From Streptococcus cristatus ATCC 51100 (lineage in GTDB: Bacteria; Bacillota; Bacilli; Lactobacillales; Streptococcaceae): DNA of 64,000 bases. This document shows, one piece after another, positions 44,664-60,870 of the stretch. The notes under the pieces were generated by a model, which was not told the DNA's origin, searched no databases, and was given only the letters and a program-made list of their open reading frames with translations. A program made the translations under genes and the position numbers. Numbering within the stretch: position 1 is the first letter of the stretch; each line of letters begins with the position of its first letter. The stretch covers positions 1,612,001 through 1,676,000 of the forward strand of contig NZ_CP050133.1 in the NCBI RefSeq assembly GCF_011612585.1, written 5' to 3'.

Positions 44664-45050
44664 TATGTGCAATTTTCTATAAGCCATGTTTTGTTCCAGA
44701 AATGACTAGGTACCATCTCCTTCGATAATCATCTGTCTACTGTTTCCAGTCAGAATGCTATGTTCGTTTCCACGCATTCCGTGCCCCGACCAAAGTTTGG
44801 GTTGCTAGCTTGAGGGGTTTACCGCGTTCCACTTCTTCTGTTTCCAGAAGAACTACGTCACTGTGGCACTTTCAGACCTATTCAGGCCTATCTAAAAGAC
44901 TTAGCCTTTTCAGTCGCCGTAACGGATTACTCCGTCCCTAGGCTTATTGTTTCGCCTAGCACAAACACTACCAGCATCACAGCCGGTGCTAGCATGGACT
45001 TTCCTCATGAAAATATTAAATCTTCACGCGATTATCCAAAAATTGCACTC
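44664..45050 (-). ncRNA. rnpB: RNase P RNA, type B
   Basis: On the minus strand the RNA opens GTGCAATTTTTGGATAATCG and closes TAGAAAATTGCAC, which pair as helix P1. Between them lie the conserved GAGGAAAGTCCATGC (P4 5' strand and CR-I), CGGCTGTGATGCTGGTAG, the GACGGAGTAATCCGTTACGGC hairpin region, and near the 3' end ACAGATGATTATCGAAG, the P4 3' partner. It is the catalytic RNA that trims 5' leaders of tRNA precursors. The ends are estimated to within a few bases. It starts only about 8 nt after the gpsB stop codon, so its promoter must lie inside gpsB or it is processed from a joint transcript. rnpB beside gpsB and rlmL is the pneumococcal order. Confidence 0.95.
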
Positions 45051-50326: not shown

Positions 50327-51865
50327 CAGATTGAAGACAAACATTCCAAATGGTGTTTGTCTTTTTCTGTTTGTCAGGCTAATATTTCATCTTTTGATAG
50401 AATAATGGTCATTTGAACAAAATAAAAAGGCTTGTCCACCCTCATTTTTACTAGTTTTTTAAGATTCAAACACGCCAAAGTAAGCCCAACCTTATCTTCC
50501 ATTTTGGACTTTCCTTTCTCTCTGGTGTATCTCAAGTTATGATATTCCTTAGCAGTCCCAAAGAGTCGCTCAATTGTTTCCTTGCGCTTCTTATAAAGCT
50601 CCTTCATCCCTCTTTTGTGGCGAATCTCTTCACAAAATTCAAGGTCATCTTTCCATACATGTCTTGTGATGACTTTCTGCTGATTCTGGCTCTGGGTACA
50701 AACTGATGATAGGGGACAGGCGACACATACTTTTGGATCACTCTTATACTCACGGTAGCCTGCTCGGGTCGTCGTGCGATAGGTTAACACTTGGTTCTCT
50801 GGGCAGAGGTAACAGTCATAGAAGGCATCATAAACAAAATCACCGGGCCTTAAGTTCCCTTTTACACCCTTGGGGCGGGTATAGGGAAAGACAGGGATGA
50901 TGTTTCGCTCTAATAAATAATGAGCAATAGCTGGGGTCTTATAGCCTGAGTCCGCAATAATGTAGCGTGGGGAGAAAGCTTCTATCTTTGAAAAAAGGGC
51001 AGGGAAAGCCTGACTATCGTGTACATTTCCTGCTTCAACACTATAAGCTAGTGCCCAACCATGCTTGTCACAAGCTACCTGGGCAGAATAGGCAAATACT
51101 TCCTTGTGTTGACCCTTGTGGAACCAGCCACTCTCTGGGTCTGTCCTTGAGATTTTCTTTTCTTTAGCCTCGCTTTCTTTTGCGGGCTTTAAGGACTTTT
51201 TTTCATGTTTCCTCCTATCTAAATCAATCTCAACTTCCAATTGCTCACTCATAAATTTAGCTTGTTGGGCAACCATTTTCTTACGATATTTGTGACTGTT
51301 AGCTGCCGCTTTGATGTGAGTACCATCCACAAATAGTTCCGAAGGATCAATTAAGCCAGCACATAAAGCTTGATGGAGCACTCGCGAAAATATCTCTGAA
51401 ATTAATTCTTTATCTTGAAAACGACGACTGTAATTCTTTCCATAGGTGGTAAAATGAGGGACCTTGTCATCCAAGCTTAGTCCAAGAAACCAACGATAAG
51501 CTACATTTACTTCAATATCTTTAATGGTTTGGCGCATGGAGCGAATGCCATAAAAACATTGAATCAAAGGGATTTTGACTAACATGACAGGATCGAGACT
51601 AGGACGACCATTATCTGGACTATAGGTGTCTTCTACCAAGTCATAGATAAAATCAAAATCAAGCTTTGAATCCACTTGGCGAAGAAAGTGATCCTCTGGG
51701 ACCAATTCGTCGATCGTATAGAAGCCATATTGGCAGCGATGATAATCAGGTTTTTCTTTGTGAAACATAGAGAATACCTCACAATTCTTCTCACCTCTAT
51801 TATACGACTTTACAAAAAGAAAAGCCCTTAGAAAAGTGTCTTCTAAGGACTTTGTCTTCAATCTG
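50327..51865 (-). mobile_element. IS1182-type insertion sequence
   Basis: A 1539-bp element bounded by 15-bp perfect inverted repeats: CAGATTGAAGACAAA at 50327-50341 and its complement at 51851-51865. It carries one transposase gene. Both ends are flanked by a 22-bp direct repeat (50305-50326 and 51866-51887) that is a palindrome. An alternative view takes the palindrome as part of longer inverted ends; the centre then mismatches (AA against TT), so a duplicated target fits better. Confidence 0.82.
50374..51768 (-). CDS. IS1182-family transposase
   Basis: A 464-residue DDE transposase that appears intact. The N-terminal DUF772-type domain reads YGFYTIDELVPEDHFLRQVD and RPSLDPVMLVKIPLIQ. The catalytic Asp residues are in LFVDGTHIKAAAN (near residue 165) and RYIIADSGYKTPA (near 280), and the Glu in ERLFGTAKEYHNLRY (near 410). 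A Cys cluster (CPENQ, CVACPLSSVC) lies between them. I use the ATG at 51768 with GAGG 9 nt upstream and a TATAAT box before it, just inside the right end. It reads toward pepC and is ended by the left copy of the duplicated terminator. Confidence 0.93.
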   Translation of the reverse strand: MFHKEKPDYHRCQYGFYTIDELVPEDHFLRQVDSKLDFDFIYDLVEDTYSPDNGRPSLDPVMLVKIPLIQCFYGIRSMRQTIKDIEVNVAYRWFLGLSLDDKVPHFTTYGKNYSRRFQDKELISEIFSRVLHQALCAGLIDPSELFVDGTHIKAAANSHKYRKKMVAQQAKFMSEQLEVEIDLDRRKHEKKSLKPAKESEAKEKKISRTDPESGWFHKGQHKEVFAYSAQVACDKHGWALAYSVEAGNVHDSQAFPALFSKIEAFSPRYIIADSGYKTPAIAHYLLERNIIPVFPYTRPKGVKGNLRPGDFVYDAFYDCYLCPENQVLTYRTTTRAGYREYKSDPKVCVACPLSSVCTQSQNQQKVITRHVWKDDLEFCEEIRHKRGMKELYKKRKETIERLFGTAKEYHNLRYTREKGKSKMEDKVGLTLACLNLKKLVKMRVDKPFYFVQMTIILSKDEILA

Positions 51866-52490: not shown

Positions 52491-53315
52491 TCACTTCCAA
52501 AATTCATCAAAAATTGTAATCGGCAAATGCCGTTTGTGTTGGCCTTTATGCCACCAAGACTCTATCGTTTCTTGGGCTTGGGCTGAAACGGACTTGCCTT
52601 CGAGATAGTCGTCAATTTCATTATAGGTCACGCCCAGAGCGACTTCATCCGCAATCCCAGGTTTTTCCTCTTCCAGGTCAGCCGTCGGCACCTTTTCATA
52701 GAGAGCCGGATCCGCTCCTAAGGCAGCTAAAAGCTGCTTGCCTTGACGCTTATTGAGACGGTAAAGCGGTAAGATATCTGCTCCGCCATCCCCAAACTTG
52801 GTGAAAAAGGCCGTGACATTTTCGGCTGCATGATCGGTCCCAATGACAGCCCCACTGTATGAACCAGCCAAAGCATACTGGGCGATCATACGGCTGCGGG
52901 CCTTGATATTGCCCTTGTTAAAGTCAGAGACTTTGGCACCTGTTGCCTCTACGGCAGCTGTCATGGCATCAGCGGATTCCTTGATATTGACTGTCAGGCT
53001 GACATCAGGCTGGATGAAGGCCAGAGCCTTTTGCGCATCATCTTCATCCGCCTGAACACCGTAAGGCAGGCGGACAGCGATAAAACGATAGCCATCATCG
53101 CCTGTCTCAGCCCGCATTTCCTCTACAGCCAGCTGAGCCAAGCGGCCAGCCAAGGTTGAGTCCTGACCACCAGAAATTCCCAGAACATAGCTTTTCAAAA
53201 AGGGATGTTTTCTCAGATAGACCTTGAGAAAGTCCACTGATTTGCGGATTTCTTCCTCTGGATCAATGACGGGCTTGACGCCTAGTTGGCGGATGATTTC
53301 TTCTTGTAGGCTCAT
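52491..53315 (-). CDS. nadE: NH3-dependent NAD+ synthetase
   Basis: A 274-residue enzyme that amidates deamido-NAD with ammonia and ATP in the last step of NAD synthesis. The N-type ATP pyrophosphatase P-loop is [19 protein letters not shown] (near residue 43). Further motifs are [16 protein letters not shown] (near 135), [22 protein letters not shown] (near 158) and the C-terminal [13 protein letters not shown]. No glutaminase domain is attached, so free ammonia is used. The ATG overlaps the pncB stop by 4 nt; the pair makes an NAD salvage operon that complements nadD at 5.3 kb. Confidence 0.96.
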
Positions 53316-54772
53316 TTTTCTGCTCCTGTCTGGTAGGCTTTCTTGCGCATCTGGTCAATCAAGTCCATTTTGTCCTGCCAAATATCACGCGCCAAATCGA
53401 CCGGATAATCTTGCGGATTGAGAACCCGTTTGTACTCGTCCCAGAGTTTGTCAAATTCTTGGCGGGCATAGTCCTGAATTTCAGACAGGCTCGGCAAATC
53501 GTAGACAAGCTGACCTTCTTTATAAATATCCACCAAGAGCGGCACCGCAGCAAAATTCTTGACTGTTTTATTGATATAAGTATAAGTCGGATGGAACATT
53601 TCGAGCTCTTCCTGATGATTGACATCCACACCATCATAAGTGATGTAGTCGCCCTCGGACTTGCCTTTTTCACGGCTGGTAATCCGCCAAACCTGCTTCT
53701 TGCCCGGAGTCGAAACCTTTTCAGCATTGTTAGAGAGCTTGATGGTGTTGCGCAAGTGCCCATTCTCATCTTCAATCGCTACAATTTTGTAAACGGCACC
53801 CAGCGCTGGCTGATCGTAGGCGGTAATCAGCTTGGTTCCTACGCCCCAGACGTCAATCTTAGCCTTTTGCATTTTCAAGTTGAGAATGGTATTCTCATCC
53901 AAGTCATTGGAAGCATAGATTTTAGCATTTGGGAAGCCCGCTTCATCTAACTGCTGGCGAACTTTTTTAGAAATATAGGCCAAGTCTCCAGAGTCGATCC
54001 GCACACCTAAGAAATTGATTTTATCCCCAAATTCACGCGCTACACGAATGGCCGTAGGAACCCCGATCCGAAGGGTATCGTAGGTGTCTACCAAGAATAC
54101 ACAGTCCCGATGAGTGCTTGCATAAGCCTTGAAAGCCTCGTAATCATTGCCATAAACCTGCACAAGTGCATGGGCATGCGTTCCCAGAACGGGAATATCA
54201 AAGAGCTTGCCTGCCCGAACATTGCTGGTACCGTTGGCTCCACCGATAACAGCTGCCCGCGTACCCCAAATCGCCGCATCCATTTCCTGAGCACGACGAG
54301 TACCAAACTCCATCAACGGCTCATCTTCGATCACAGAGCGGATGCGAGCTGCCTTGGTCGCAATCAAGGTTTGGAAATTCACGATATTTAAAATCGCAGT
54401 TTCTACCAACTGACATTGTGCCAGCGGCCCTTCGACCTGAACAATCGGTTCATTAGCAAAAACCAAATCTCCTTCTTTAGCAGAACGCACGGTCAGCTGC
54501 ATCTTGAAATCACGTAAATACTCTAAGAAAGCTCCGTTATAGCCTAAGGACGCTAAATAGTCCAAATCCGTCTGACTGAATGTCAAATCATTCAGATAAG
54601 CCACAATCCTCTCTAAGCCCGCAAAAACGGCATAGCCATTATTAAAAGGATTCTTGCGGAAATAGACTTCAAAAACAGCACGCTTATTGTGGATACCCTC
54701 GTTGAAATAAACCTGCATCATATTGATTTGATATAAGTCTGTATGTAAAGTCAAACTGTCATCTGGAAACAT
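53312..54772 (-). CDS. pncB: Nicotinate phosphoribosyltransferase
   Basis: A 486-residue enzyme that joins nicotinate and PRPP to give nicotinate mononucleotide, the entry to NAD salvage. Visible markers are [15 protein letters not shown] at the N-terminus, the [21 protein letters not shown] stretch, [21 protein letters not shown] (near residue 160), the phosphate-binding [18 protein letters not shown] and [12 protein letters not shown] use the ATG at 54772 with AAGGAG 7 nt upstream; a longer frame exists but has no ribosome site. An extended -10 TGTTATAAT lies about 35 nt upstream. nadE follows with a 4-nt overlap. Confidence 0.95.
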
Positions 54773-54839: not shown

Positions 54840-54872
54840 AGCAAAATACCTCCAGAATTTCTTCTGGAGGTA
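54840..54872 (-). terminator. Terminator of the small transcript upstream of pncB
   Basis: On the minus strand TACCTCCAGAA pairs perfectly with TTCTGGAGGTA around a 4-nt loop and is followed by TTTTGC. It lies about 27 nt after the stop codon of the 25-codon ORF. Confidence 0.85.
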
Positions 54873-54898: not shown

Positions 54899-54976
54899 TT
54901 AGATTCCATAAGTCTTGTTCACGCGGCGCATCTGTTTAAATTCTTTTTTATAGGTTACTTTAACTGCTACTTTCAT
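54899..54976 (-). CDS. 25-residue basic peptide gene behind a CiaR-like promoter
   Basis: The ORF encodes MKVAVKVTYKKEFKQMRRVN plus five residues ending YGI. It has GAGGTGG 5 nt before the ATG, its own -10 box and its own terminator, giving a predicted transcript of about 160 nt. The peptide has a net positive charge (six Lys, two Arg, one Glu) and alternating hydrophobic residues at the N-terminus. I do not recognise it. The transcript could be a small regulatory RNA of the cia-dependent kind that also carries an ORF, or simply a mini-gene. Too short for normal gene finders. Confidence 0.6.
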   Translation of the reverse strand: MKVAVKVTYKKEFKQMRRVNKTYGI

Positions 54977-55006
54977 TTTTTCCACCTCGTTTCTTTTGAT
55001 GCTTTT

Positions 55007-55061
55007 ATTATAGGCCTCAAAGCTTAAGGAAGGCTTAGAATTTTCTTGCAGAAAGCTTAAA
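55007..55061 (-). promoter_or_regulatory. CiaR-like promoter with four half-sites at 11-bp spacing
   Basis: On the minus strand, upstream to downstream, the hexamers TTTAAG (55056-55061), TGCAAG (55045-55050), TCTAAG (55034-55039) and CTTAAG (55023-55028) are each separated by exactly 5 bp. Ten bases after the last comes TATAAT (55007-55012). The CiaR site of streptococci is TTTAAG-N5-TTTAAG with the same 10-bp distance to the -10. The site starts about 30 bp after the recG stop codon. Confidence 0.65.
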
Positions 55062-55095: not shown

Positions 55096-57111
55096 CTAGT
55101 CCAGATAATCGCGTTTTTCAAGATGCAGGGATACTAGGTGCCAATTGGCATCCTGCCGCCAGCTAGGATTGGCGACGATTTGGCTGGCGACCTTGCGCGC
55201 TTCTTCCAAAATGGGATAGTCCTCCACGATGTCCGCCACCTGAAACTCTGGGATACCAGACTGACGGGTCCCAAAAATTTCACCAGAGCCACGCATCTTG
55301 AGGTCTTCCTCAGCCAGAACAAAGCCATCTGTTGTCTCGGTCATGATTTTCATACGTTTCTTGCCAGACTCTGTCTTGGGATTGGCAACCAGCACAGCAT
55401 AAGACTGCTTATTTCCTCGACCCACTCGTCCCCGCAGCTGATGAAGCTGGCTGAGTCCGAAGCGGTCAGCATCCATGATAACCATGATGGTCGCATTCGG
55501 AACATTGACGCCGACTTCAATAACTGTAGTTGACACTAGAATATCTGTTTTCCCATCCTTGAAGTCCTGCATAATGGCCTCTTTTTCGTCATTTTTCATA
55601 CGACCGTGAAGGAGAGCCACCTGAGCCTGATTGGCAAAGTAGGCCTTGAGCTCTTCCTCTAGAGCAATCGCATTTTTTAAATCCAAAGCCTCCGATTCCT
55701 CAATCAAGGGAGAAATGAAGTAGACTTGGGCACCCTTGGCCAGCTCTTTTTTCATCCAGTCCAAAACCACTTCCAATTGCTCGTGCTTGACCCAGCGAGT
55801 AATGATAGGCTTGCGGCCAGCCGGCATCTGGTCGATGATAGAGACATCCATGTCACCAAAAGCGGTAATGGCCAAAGTACGAGGAATAGGCGTGGCTGTC
55901 ATCATGAGAACGTCTGGATTATTTCCCTTTTCCCGCAAAATCCGACGCTGGTCCACCCCAAAACGATGTTGCTCATCAATAATGACCAAGCCAAGTCGAT
56001 GATAGACCACCCCTTCCTGAATCAAGGCATGGGTGCCGACCACCATATCTACTTGCCCCGACTCTATGGCAGCTAAAGTCTCTCTGCGTTCAGCGGCTTT
56101 CATACCACCAGTTAGGAGGGCTAAATTCAGTTCAGGAAAGAGCTGAGTCAGGCTATCCAGATGCTGCTCAGCCAAGATTTCTGTCGGAACCATCAAAGCT
56201 GACTGATAGCCTGCCGTATAGGCGGCATACATGGCCAAACCGGCCACAACAGTCTTACCACTACCAACATCTCCTTGCAGGAGACGGTTCATATGAGCAG
56301 GCGATTGCAAATCACTGAGAATTTCTTCCAGACTCCTCTCCTGAGCTTCCGTCAGAGAAAATGGCAATGCAGCTTTTTTTTGAGCCAGCATTTTTTCCTG
56401 CCAAGGAATAGCGAGTCCCTGACTGATATCCTTGTTCTCATGCTTCAGAACCTGCAGCTGCATCTGAAAATAAAAAAGTTCTTCAAACTTGACCCGACGC
56501 AGGGCCTGCTTATATTCCGCCAAATCCCTAGGAAAGTGCATGGCACGCACAGCTTGAGTGCGCCCCAAAAGCTGGTAGCGCTCCAGAAGGACAGGAGGAA
56601 GATTCTCCTCTAACAACTGATCCAAACCTTGGTCAAAGGCTGCCTTAATCAGTTTGACAAGACTGGCCTGACTAATCCCTTGGGCAACTCGATAAACTGG
56701 CTGCAAGTCGTCTTCAACCTGAGCTAACACCTTCATCCCCGTCAGACTAGCCTTGGCTTTATCCCATTTACCAAAAATAGCCACCGTTGCTCCCAGCTCG
56801 ATCTTATCTGCTAGATACGGCTGGTTGAAAAAGTTGACTGCAATCGCGACTTCTCCCTGCTTGATTGTGAAACGCAGGCGATTGCGCTTGTAGCCATAAT
56901 ACTGAACATTAGCTGGAGTCGCGACGATCCCAGAAATGACCGCCTTTTCTCCATCTTCTAAATCAAGGACATTCTTACTCTTAAAATCTTCATAGCGAAA
57001 AGGAAAATAGAGCAGGAGATCCTGCAGGCTCTCAAGGCCTAGTTTTTTAAATTTTTCAGCCGATTTTGGCCCCACTCCTGGCAGAGCCGTCAAAGCCTGG
57101 TGCAGATTCAT
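55096..57111 (-). CDS. recG: ATP-dependent DNA helicase RecG
   Basis: A 671-residue superfamily 2 helicase that reverses stalled forks and remodels branched DNA. The N-terminal wedge (OB) domain covers about residues 1-150 (starting LTALPGVGPKSAEKFKKLG). Helicase motifs follow: I in LLQGDVGSGKTVVAGLA (near 285), II in LVIIDEQHRFGVDQR (near 385), III in MMTATPIPRTLA, V in TTVIEVGVNVPNA and VI in QLHQLRGRVGRG (near 575). Length is normal. It is the last gene of a group with alr and acpS, the order seen in pneumococcus; no obvious hairpin follows the stop. Confidence 0.96.
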   Translation of the reverse strand: MNLHQALTALPGVGPKSAEKFKKLGLESLQDLLLYFPFRYEDFKSKNVLDLEDGEKAVISGIVATPANVQYYGYKRNRLRFTIKQGEVAIAVNFFNQPYLADKIELGATVAIFGKWDKAKASLTGMKVLAQVEDDLQPVYRVAQGISQASLVKLIKAAFDQGLDQLLEENLPPVLLERYQLLGRTQAVRAMHFPRDLAEYKQALRRVKFEELFYFQMQLQVLKHENKDISQGLAIPWQEKMLAQKKAALPFSLTEAQERSLEEILSDLQSPAHMNRLLQGDVGSGKTVVAGLAMYAAYTAGYQSALMVPTEILAEQHLDSLTQLFPELNLALLTGGMKAAERRETLAAIESGQVDMVVGTHALIQEGVVYHRLGLVIIDEQHRFGVDQRRILREKGNNPDVLMMTATPIPRTLAITAFGDMDVSIIDQMPAGRKPIITRWVKHEQLEVVLDWMKKELAKGAQVYFISPLIEESEALDLKNAIALEEELKAYFANQAQVALLHGRMKNDEKEAIMQDFKDGKTDILVSTTVIEVGVNVPNATIMVIMDADRFGLSQLHQLRGRVGRGNKQSYAVLVANPKTESGKKRMKIMTETTDGFVLAEEDLKMRGSGEIFGTRQSGIPEFQVADIVEDYPILEEARKVASQIVANPSWRQDANWHLVSLHLEKRDYLD

Positions 57112-58799: not shown

Positions 58800-59837
58800 T
58801 TAAGCTTCTTTTTCTAAGGTATCATAGATTTCCTGAATGAGCTCTTCTGTCTTGTCCCAGCCCAAGCAAGGATCGGTAATGGACTTACCAAAGACTTCTG
58901 GCTCATTCTGGCGGCCATCCTCCAAGTAGGACTCAATCATGAATCCACGCACAGCCTTTTTGATTTGCTCATTCCAAGCACAGTTGATCAGAGTCTGACG
59001 GATAATACGGATCTGCTCCAAATACTGCTTGCCAGAATTATCATGATTGGTATCAATCAGGATAAAAGGATTGGACAGCTTCATTTCTTCATAGCGTTTG
59101 ATCACATCCAGAAGATTTTCGTAATAGAAGTTAGGCTTGTTCTTACCGTACTCATCTAACGCACCACGCAAAATCACATGCGCAAGAGGATTTCCTAACG
59201 TTTCTACTTCCTGACCATGATAGAGGAAGATTTGCTTATTTTGAGCAGCATAGACAGCATTAAACATGACTCCAAGATTGCCAGATGTTGGATTTTTCAT
59301 ACCAACCGGAGCGTCAATGCCAGACGCTACGAAGCGGTGTTCTTGATCTTCGACCGAACGAGCACCTACGGCATGGTAACTGACCAAATCATCTACCAGC
59401 ACTAGATTAGAAGGATAGAGCATTTCATCAGCAGTGGTCAAGCCCGTCTCAGTAATGACTCGGTAATGAAGCTGGCGCACCGCCTTTAACCCATTGATCA
59501 AGCTTGGACTTTTTGAAGTATCTGGCTGGTGAACGAGCCCTTTATAGCCGTCCCCATTGGTCCGAGGCTTGGCAGTATAGACCCGCATGACGATAAAAAT
59601 CTTATCCGCCACCTTCTGCTGCAGTTCAGCCAATCGACGAGCATACTCCAGCACCGCCTCCTCATTGTCAGATGAGCAGGGACCGATAACCAAGAGCAAG
59701 CGTTGATCTTCTCCCTTGATGATGGCAGCCAATTCCTGATCACGCTGATATTTCTTTTTCAGAGCTTGGTCTGACAAAATTGTTGCAGACTTGATCTGCT
59801 CGATGTCAATTTCCTGACCTTTTTCTATAAATGCCAT
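58800..59837 (-). CDS. 3-deoxy-7-phosphoheptulonate (DAHP) synthase, copy 2
   Basis: A 345-residue class I (type Ia-alpha) DAHP synthase that condenses phosphoenolpyruvate and erythrose-4-phosphate at the entry of the shikimate pathway. Active-site segments are LLVIGPCSSDNEEAVLEYA (near residue 48), YTAKPRTNGDGYKGL (near 87), GARSVEDQEHRFVASG (near 157), and LIDTNHDNSGKQ with the metal-binding His (near 262). It is closely related to the gene just upstream, and its ATG begins 1 nt after that gene's stop. The pair probably arose by duplication; differing feedback control is a usual reason for two copies. Confidence 0.93.
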   Translation of the reverse strand: MAFIEKGQEIDIEQIKSATILSDQALKKKYQRDQELAAIIKGEDQRLLLVIGPCSSDNEEAVLEYARRLAELQQKVADKIFIVMRVYTAKPRTNGDGYKGLVHQPDTSKSPSLINGLKAVRQLHYRVITETGLTTADEMLYPSNLVLVDDLVSYHAVGARSVEDQEHRFVASGIDAPVGMKNPTSGNLGVMFNAVYAAQNKQIFLYHGQEVETLGNPLAHVILRGALDEYGKNKPNFYYENLLDVIKRYEEMKLSNPFILIDTNHDNSGKQYLEQIRIIRQTLINCAWNEQIKKAVRGFMIESYLEDGRQNEPEVFGKSITDPCLGWDKTEELIQEIYDTLEKEA

Positions 59838-59838
59838 A

Positions 59839-60870
59839 TTATTTACCTAGTGTGTCGTATATCTCATGGACGAGTTCGACCGTCTTGTCCCAGCCTAGGC
59901 ATGGATCTGTGATAGATTTGCCAAAGACTTCTGGTTCATTTTGTCGGCCATCCTCCAAGTAAGATTCAATCATAAAGCCACGAACCACCTTCTTGATTTT
60001 ATCATTCCAGTCGCGGTTGATCAAAGTCTGACGAACAATACGGACTTGCTCCAAATACTGCTTGCCAGAGTTGTCATGGTTAGTATCAATGATGATAAAT
60101 GGATTTTCTAGTCCCATAGCTTCATACTGGGCGATTGTATCCAGCAGATTATCATAATAGTAGTTCGGAATATTTTTGCCATATTCATTGATGGCACCGC
60201 GCAGAATCGCATGAACCAAGGGATTTCCGCTCGTCTCTACTTCTCTATTTGCAAAGAGGAAGCTCTGCTTGTTCTGAGCCGCATAAATACCGTTAAACAT
60301 GACATTCAGATTGCCAGATGTTGGATTTTTCAAACCAGTCGGAAAATCCGCTCCACTGGCTACAAAGCGGTGCTGCTGATCTTCAACAGAACGAGCACCG
60401 ATCGCCATATAGGAAATCAAATCATCTACTAAGGGGAGATTTTCTGGGTAAAGCATCTCGTCAGCCGTCGTCATTCCAGTTTCTGAAATCACGCGGTAAT
60501 GCAGGTTACGCACCGCTTTAATTCCGTTGATTAGGCTAGGTGCCGCTGTCGCATTAGGCTGATGAATCAAACCCTTGTAGCCATCACCATTGGTCCGTGG
60601 CTTGGCTGTGTAGACCCGCATGACCATAAAGATCCGATCTTTAACCTCTTCCTGAAGAGCTGCCAAACGCTTGGCGTATTCCAAGACAGCTTCTTCATTG
60701 TCTGAGGAGCAAGGACCGATGACCAAAAGGATACGATCATCCTCACCGCGGATAATAGCTTCTAGTTGACGATCTCGTTCTTGCTTACGAGCCAAAATAG
60801 AACCTTCTAACTTAGCAAGCTGACGCACTTCTGCTACATTGATTGGTTGACTAGTTGCTTTAAAGGTCAT
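59839..60870 (-). CDS. 3-deoxy-7-phosphoheptulonate (DAHP) synthase, copy 1
   Basis: A 343-residue paralogue of the following gene, with the same motifs: LLVIGPCSSDNEEAVLEYA, YTAKPRTNGDGYKGL, GARSVEDQQHRFVASG and IIDTNHDNSGKQ. The N-terminal 40 residues differ most between copies (FKATSQPINVAEVRQLAKLEG here), and this is where feedback ligands bind in the family, so the two may respond to different aromatic amino acids; that is inference. It follows secA by 16 nt on the same strand and precedes copy 2 with a 1-nt gap (TAATATG junction). GAGAGA lies upstream of the ATG. Confidence 0.93.
   Translation of the reverse strand: MTFKATSQPINVAEVRQLAKLEGSILARKQERDRQLEAIIRGEDDRILLVIGPCSSDNEEAVLEYAKRLAALQEEVKDRIFMVMRVYTAKPRTNGDGYKGLIHQPNATAAPSLINGIKAVRNLHYRVISETGMTTADEMLYPENLPLVDDLISYMAIGARSVEDQQHRFVASGADFPTGLKNPTSGNLNVMFNGIYAAQNKQSFLFANREVETSGNPLVHAILRGAINEYGKNIPNYYYDNLLDTIAQYEAMGLENPFIIIDTNHDNSGKQYLEQVRIVRQTLINRDWNDKIKKVVRGFMIESYLEDGRQNEPEVFGKSITDPCLGWDKTVELVHEIYDTLGK

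Follow-up and report, generated by a model that had tools for sequence, protein, structure and literature searches.

The interval between recG and pncB

The window analysed here is a stretch of 64,000 nt from Streptococcus cristatus ATCC 51100 (contig NZ_CP050133.1), and in it a 25-codon ORF with its own ribosome binding site lies between recG and pncB. Four related hexamers and a −10 box precede the ORF and a hairpin follows it. The features of the locus, with positions counted from the first letter of the window, are:

55096..57111, minus strand: recG, the upstream neighbour and conserved anchor of the locus (ORF list)
55056..55061, minus strand: half-site 4 (distal), TTTAAG (sequence)
55045..55050, minus strand: half-site 3, TGCAAG (sequence)
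55034..55039, minus strand: half-site 2, TCTAAG (sequence)
55023..55028, minus strand: half-site 1 (proximal), CTTAAG, 10 bp before the −10 box (sequence)
55007..55012, minus strand: −10 box, TATAAT (sequence)
54982..54988, minus strand: ribosome binding site, GAGGTGG (sequence)
54899..54976, minus strand: 25-codon ORF, MKVAVKVTYKKEFKQMRRVNKTYGI, stop codon included, with the ATG at 54976 (ORF list)
54847..54872, minus strand: putative terminator hairpin, an inverted repeat (terminator scan, folding)
53312..54772, minus strand: pncB (nicotinate phosphoribosyltransferase), the downstream neighbour, whose place is not conserved (ORF list, PF17767)

The full promoter string on the minus strand is TTTAAG-N5-TGCAAG-N5-TCTAAG-N5-CTTAAG-N10-TATAAT, and the −10 box lies 30 nt ahead of the ATG. 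A sequence-only reading of this stretch had claimed half-sites at an 11-bp period with the last of them 10 bp from TATAAT, and both positions and spacing were borne out. It had also described a good ribosome site, a 25-codon ORF and a strong terminator within about 160 nt. The ribosome site and ORF are there, and hairpin and size agree with a predicted 164-nt RNA that folds at −35.2 kcal/mol (z = −4.0), but the U-tract of the minus-strand hairpin is only modest (TTTTGCTATT). The hairpin is intergenic, about 135-160 nt from the −10 box, and a consensus terminator scan scored it as terminator-like on the plus strand only. The encoded peptide is basic, with the core VKVTYKKEF, and inspection by eye of its 25 residues found no hydrophobic stretch suggesting export or membrane insertion.

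The four-site array with its −10 box scored 26 out of 30, beyond the best score of 22 among 200 first-order Markov sequences of 64 kb each. A two-site pattern with two mismatches allowed occurred once in the window against 2.4 expected and is no rarer than chance, so the significance of the array rests on the number of half-sites. The strict four-site pattern was found in 75 of 284 genomes of the genus and its reversed form in none of the 284. Streptococci are not alone in having the bare pattern: among the matches listed for all species, 31 of 80 were named Streptococcus and 49 were not. Conservation of the half-sites in related genomes had been set beforehand as one of the points on which the reading would stand or fall; they are conserved, as the strict pattern in the 75 genomes and as an array in 83 of 84 ORF-bearing recG 3′ regions.

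A peptide family at the 3′ end of recG

Of 197 genus genomes searched with the 25-residue peptide, 32 had a match at E ≤ 1, and the identical peptide is encoded in nine of the 197, the S. cristatus genome counted. Several of the weaker matches proved on inspection to have the same promoter and ribosome site; others, such as L023, L024, L029 and L030, were rejected as chance matches. With a profile of 11 peptides, 203 of 284 genus genomes had a match at E ≤ 0.5 and 170 (counted by hand) at E ≤ 0.005. An order-wide search with the profile covered 198 genomes, 27 of them listed as the same genus and the unlisted rows taken as other genera. Among these approximately 171 genomes of other genera the best E-value was 0.0079 and 46 genomes reached 0.5; the laxer threshold was therefore judged too permissive and E ≤ 0.005 was used.

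The family consensus is M-T-x-x-[IV]-K-V-x-Y-x-K-x-F, followed by a variable tail that often ends in YG plus one residue. The core can be written [IV]KVxYxKxF and the ORFs encode about 20-26 residues. Pfam and NCBIfam held no family model matching the four peptides tried.

Loci were also sampled independently of the peptide, starting from RecG. Of 147 genus genomes sampled, 146 gave a match to the RecG C-terminus, and 961 nt of 3′ sequence were taken from all 146 (427 and 613 nt in two cases). An array scoring at least 22 lay within 300 nt of the recG stop codon in 86 of the 146, and the top-scoring of 438 mononucleotide shuffles of the recG 3′ stretches reached 21. A family ORF (at least 15 bits) occurred at the recG 3′ end in 84 of 146, representing 54 distinct peptides. 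The sequence-only reading had proposed looking for the ORF and the half-site pattern beside recG in other streptococci, and the two do occur there together: 83 regions have both, 58 have neither, four have the array only and one the ORF only, where arrays were sought over a 620 nt stretch and the shuffle null covers only the 300-nt search. One of the four array-only loci is a broken copy (G002), two have ORFs resembling divergent members (G012, G121) and one has no recognisable ORF (G070). The gene is thus not universal, as 58 of the 146 regions lack both array and ORF.

Of 42 loci anchored on the −10 box, 37 have the ATG 29-32 nt downstream of it. In many loci the TAA stop codon of recG lies inside the first half-site, as ATTAAG, which is not the case in the window. 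The window gene has the family core, the placement directly downstream of recG, the four half-sites and the −10 box with the ATG about 30 nt on. By sequence comparison it belongs to a family of recG-linked micropeptides predicted in many streptococci.

For the recG-linked family, pN/pS was 0.26 in frame, compared with 1.87 and 0.84 in the shifted frames (214 same-length ORF pairs at least 75% identical). Over the nine-residue core (990 pairs) pS was 0.70 and pN 0.21, and the tail is less constrained than the core, with a ratio of 0.46 (176 pairs). The ratios are descriptive, because the ORF pairs are not independent. As judged from these substitution patterns, the family codons are under protein-level selection.

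Probable CiaR-type control and the pneumococcal srf-21 locus

Promoters controlled by CiaR are described as TTTAAG-N5-TTTAAG, with one mismatch allowed in each half-site, 10 bp ahead of a −10 box with at most two mismatches (PMC3091779). The proximal pair in the window, TCTAAG-N5-CTTAAG-N10-TATAAT, obeys this rule. In the same genome htrA (NF053637, above cut-off) stands behind a promoter of CiaR type, TTTAAG-N5-ATTAAG-N10-TATAAT. The genome has nine Trans_reg_C genes, one of which, at 1005.7 kb, is directly followed by a histidine-kinase gene; we take this pair, judging by its sequence, to be the probable CiaRH. NCBIfam has no curated model naming this regulator as CiaR, and the 95%-identical streptococcal proteins among the matches listed had only generic response-regulator names. 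CiaRH is reported in > 99% of streptococcal genomes, and in the same source ciaR overexpression shifted few known CiaR targets (PMC11034029).

For comparison with S. pneumoniae D39, we take spv_1507 to be recG. A Ribo-RET ORF, rio82 (MTVTIKVNYQTTFQKKEAKN), was reported between spv_1506 and spv_1507 within srf-21; that study called it protein-coding, noted CiaRH control of srf-21 in its discussion, and included rio82 among ten ORFs fused to sfGFP, five of which gave bands (PMC9426450). Elsewhere srf-21 is given as a 124-nt feature (PMC6212727), as a CiaR-regulon “ncRNA of unknown function” upstream of axe1 (PMC6560143), and as having an expression pattern that matches that of CiaR sRNAs (PMC9812572). 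The RNA holding rio82 is listed in 385 strains (PMC12323649). One further source, PMC11701578 (PneumoBrowse 2), states that rio82 is annotated as shp1518; as Table 1 of PMC9426450 places rio83/rio84 beside spv_1517/1518 and rio82 in srf-21, this statement is probably a label slip.

Among the 84 recG-linked ORFs, five encode exactly the rio82 peptide, and in one of these loci (G039) an AXE1-domain gene follows, like axe1 after srf-21; on these grounds the window gene is very probably the counterpart of srf-21/rio82 (SPV_2378, Spd_sr83). Both have a promoter of CiaR type, in which the rio82-identical loci likewise show four half-sites; an ATG about 30 nt past the −10 box and a short transcript with a hairpin are also shared. 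The core of rio82, IKVNYxxxF, is the same family core as that of the window peptide, and recG lies directly upstream in the five rio82-identical loci fetched, as in the window. The two differ in that rio82 has 20 residues and no YG ending while the window peptide has 25, in the proximal half-site (TTTCAG or TTTTAG in the rio82-identical loci, CTTAAG in the window) and in the downstream gene (axe1 and pncB, respectively). An unrelated 11-aa ORF, rio3, was rejected as a pneumococcal relative.

The pneumococcal member is thus already known, as an isolated sORF in print, with srf-21 filed as an ncRNA containing an sORF and not as a family member. The literature searched, with subscription journals mostly outside its coverage, contained no description of a family spanning the genus, of its linkage to recG or of a four-site rule. 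The coding ORF postulated in the sequence-only reading gains support by comparison, since rio82 was found by ribosome profiling (PMC9426450), and by the same analogy the ORF is probably translated in S. cristatus. Its proposal of CiaR control is likewise favoured by the comparison, as published work counts srf-21 among the members of the CiaR regulon (PMC6560143, PMC9812572). The CiaRH stress-response system very probably activates the window gene, and we infer CiaR binding and control in S. cristatus by analogy.

The sequence-only reading held that two stacked CiaR sites would be unusual, which does not apply to this family. In 16 non-redundant family promoters, hexamers ending in AG occupied half-sites 1-4 in 100, 100, 81 and 81% of cases and positions 5-7 in 0, 12 and 0%. 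These promoters were aligned on the −10 box and ORF with no half-site required; 42 of the 84 loci were used (16 after dereplication). Of the rest, ten lacked a −10 box at the set distances, namely a broken copy and nine S. sanguinis-type loci, and 32 were too short on the upstream side. By comparison, 13 non-redundant promoters of Rfam-defined Cia-dependent small RNAs (csRNAs; 30 loci before dereplication, one probably anchored on the wrong −10 box) had AG endings at half-sites 1-2 in 92 and 100% and at 3-7 in 0-8%. In S. cristatus itself, the four csRNAs examined (of five RF02379 matches) have two half-sites and both peptide genes have four. Stacked sites are therefore the normal layout for the peptide family, because its promoters have four half-sites and those of the Rfam csRNAs two. 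Half-site count provides a sequence rule, although not an absolute one, for telling peptide promoters apart from those of classical csRNAs, and it hints at a graded CiaR response.

Arrays of four sites also occur elsewhere. Several other species have them before csRNA-like transcripts without a family ORF (L047, L048, L060, L062, L068). In the S. cristatus genome a looser array (TTTCAG, TTTAAG, ATTCAG, TTTAAG) lies upstream of the probable ciaR, in front of an ORF predicted to encode 145 aa (L040, around 1501-2868; G000:C1, about 1004.6-1006.0 kb). This ORF is Gln/Gly/Pro-rich with a hydrophobic N-terminal stretch and is followed by the probable ciaRH, an arrangement that possibly reflects autoregulation with an added exported protein. 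Given these cases, four sites alone do not mean a peptide gene.

Alternative readings, mode of action and variant copies

We consider it highly likely that the window gene is a CiaR-activated micropeptide gene. A variant of this interpretation keeps the micropeptide and assigns the array to another OmpR-type regulator, acting with or without CiaR. Direct repeats with an 11-bp period are typical of the OmpR/PhoB family, and the nine Trans_reg_C genes provide candidates. We regard it as quite improbable, since the proximal pair fits the CiaR rule (PMC3091779) and srf-21 in pneumococcus has been assigned to the CiaR regulon (PMC6560143). The gene could also be a non-coding csRNA that pairs with mRNA start regions, its ORF being incidental. 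The csRNAs (Rfam RF02379) comprise 40 types (Marx et al. 2010), and the window gene resembles them in lying between genes, in size, in its first transcribed bases, in a promoter of CiaR type placed 10 bp from the −10 box and in a terminator hairpin within 250 nt of that box, all but the first bases as in the published search rule (PMC3091779). It differs in having four half-sites, where csRNA1-type promoters have two, and a conserved peptide under protein-level selection (the pN/pS of 0.26 in frame), which does not fit a non-coding RNA. RF02379 gave no match at the window gene (L234), while four csRNAs of the same genome scored well above cut-off. The nonamer [A/C]UCCUAAA[A/C] is present in all but four published csRNAs (PMC3091779); neither it nor an [AC]TCCTAA stretch was found after the window ORF or, by eye, in the predicted 164-nt transcript. 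The small-RNA option left open by the sequence-only reading thus finds no support for the window copy, and we give it hardly any weight. One published result does speak against the translation of ORFs of this general kind: the CiaR RNA Srn024 of S. agalactiae contains a 24-aa ORF, lacking a ribosome site, that proved not to be translated when tested (PMC9603419).

A leader peptide or attenuator governing pncB is another reading, for which it counts that pncB lies on the same strand and that the hairpin lies between ORF and pncB. The downstream gene, however, varies across species: pncB, an AXE1 gene, a histidine phosphatase gene, a glutamine amidotransferase-type gene or, on the opposite strand, an asparaginase gene (18 loci viewed, seven proteins scanned). 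There are also peptide genes away from recG, including a second copy in the S. cristatus genome and, in another group, a copy before a probable polA gene. The varying neighbour and the unlinked copies argue against a leader of one downstream gene and favour action in trans. Conservation is highest in the N-terminal core and not at the peptide end, so an arrest peptide is not suggested either. Control of pncB by a leader therefore appears very unlikely.

In the CiaR-activated micropeptide reading, phosphorylated CiaR would bind the four direct half-sites at the −35 position, probably as two stacked dimers, and bring RNA polymerase to the TATAAT box. The resulting short mRNA, some 160 nt long and ending at the hairpin, would be translated into the basic 25-residue peptide, which would remain in the cytosol and serve the CiaRH envelope-stress response as a small trans-acting effector. 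The two dimers, cytosolic location and trans action are what we infer from the array, the peptide composition and the neighbouring genes. The peptide might most likely bind a cytosolic partner via its conserved strand-like N-terminal core, V-K-V-x-Y-x-K-x-F; this mode of action is a guess that we hold tentatively, as the most economical reading. CiaRH has been linked to beta-lactam resistance, competence, autolysis and colonization, with part of these effects credited to csRNAs (PMC3091779, PMC8186281). A conserved peptide belonging to the CiaR regulon, whose gene passed for an ncRNA before ribosome profiling, is a candidate for part of the CiaRH effects.

The second peptide gene of S. cristatus (G000:C1:1442185, MTYKVKVTYQKSFIRSKLNEAA) also has four half-sites. 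In this copy, outside the window (G000:C1:1442087-1442238; L042, L058), a csRNA-like CATCTCCTAAATAT stretch and then a hairpin come after the ORF, and the RNA may be dual-function; RF02379 gave no match there. The gene beside it is presumably a GntR-type regulator, recognised by sequence, and the gene after the other recG-unlinked copy, in another group, is by the same means taken to be polA. That copy also has a csRNA-like stretch. Among recG-linked copies, an [AC]TCCTAA stretch lies between ORF and hairpin in at least 4 of 84, one of them broken; this is a lower bound, as the hairpin finder stopped early in at least G054, where the stretch lies further on. Between the csRNAs of S. cristatus and the start regions of its two peptide genes, duplex energies, with accessibility ignored, ranked 18th-43rd of 43 background start regions, and so give no sign of csRNAs targeting the two peptide mRNAs.

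SgrS/SgrT is a dual-function sRNA. Such sRNAs are named in PMC12323649, and the second copy and some relatives resemble them in combining an ORF and a csRNA-like CTCCTAA in one predicted transcript. The window copy differs in lacking the stretch, and dual function in the relatives is only predicted from sequence.

In S. sanguinis-type genomes (L244, L242, L239, L250, L248), two arrays lie in tandem after recG. The first is followed by a predicted 181-183-nt RNA (five genomes) in which a ribosome site, the three-codon remnant of an ORF and a CTCCTAA stretch can be recognised, and the second by an intact peptide ORF that starts 105 nt past its −10 box. The reported length of csRNA8(SK36) is 177 nt (PMC3091779), and by size and content, a close agreement and not proof, the first RNA resembles csRNA8 and may correspond to it. 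More speculatively, and with considerable doubt, these patterns could be joined in one scheme: an old, genus-wide micropeptide output of CiaRH behind a dedicated four-half-site (two-dimer) promoter, with interconversion of peptide genes and csRNAs, dual-function copies, a csRNA8-like S. sanguinis RNA that is a peptide gene with a decayed ORF, and a peptide carrying part of the CiaRH phenotypes.

The remaining observations in the window also concern the minus strand. Its sole Rfam match at gathering level is bacterial class B RNase P RNA (RF00011), at 44675-45043 of the window. An ORF at 50374-51861 resembles by eye a DDE-type IS transposase and lies just upstream of a same-strand pepC-like gene. 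Two closely related genes in tandem at 58800-59837 and 59839-60870 appear, by eye, to encode DAHP synthases.
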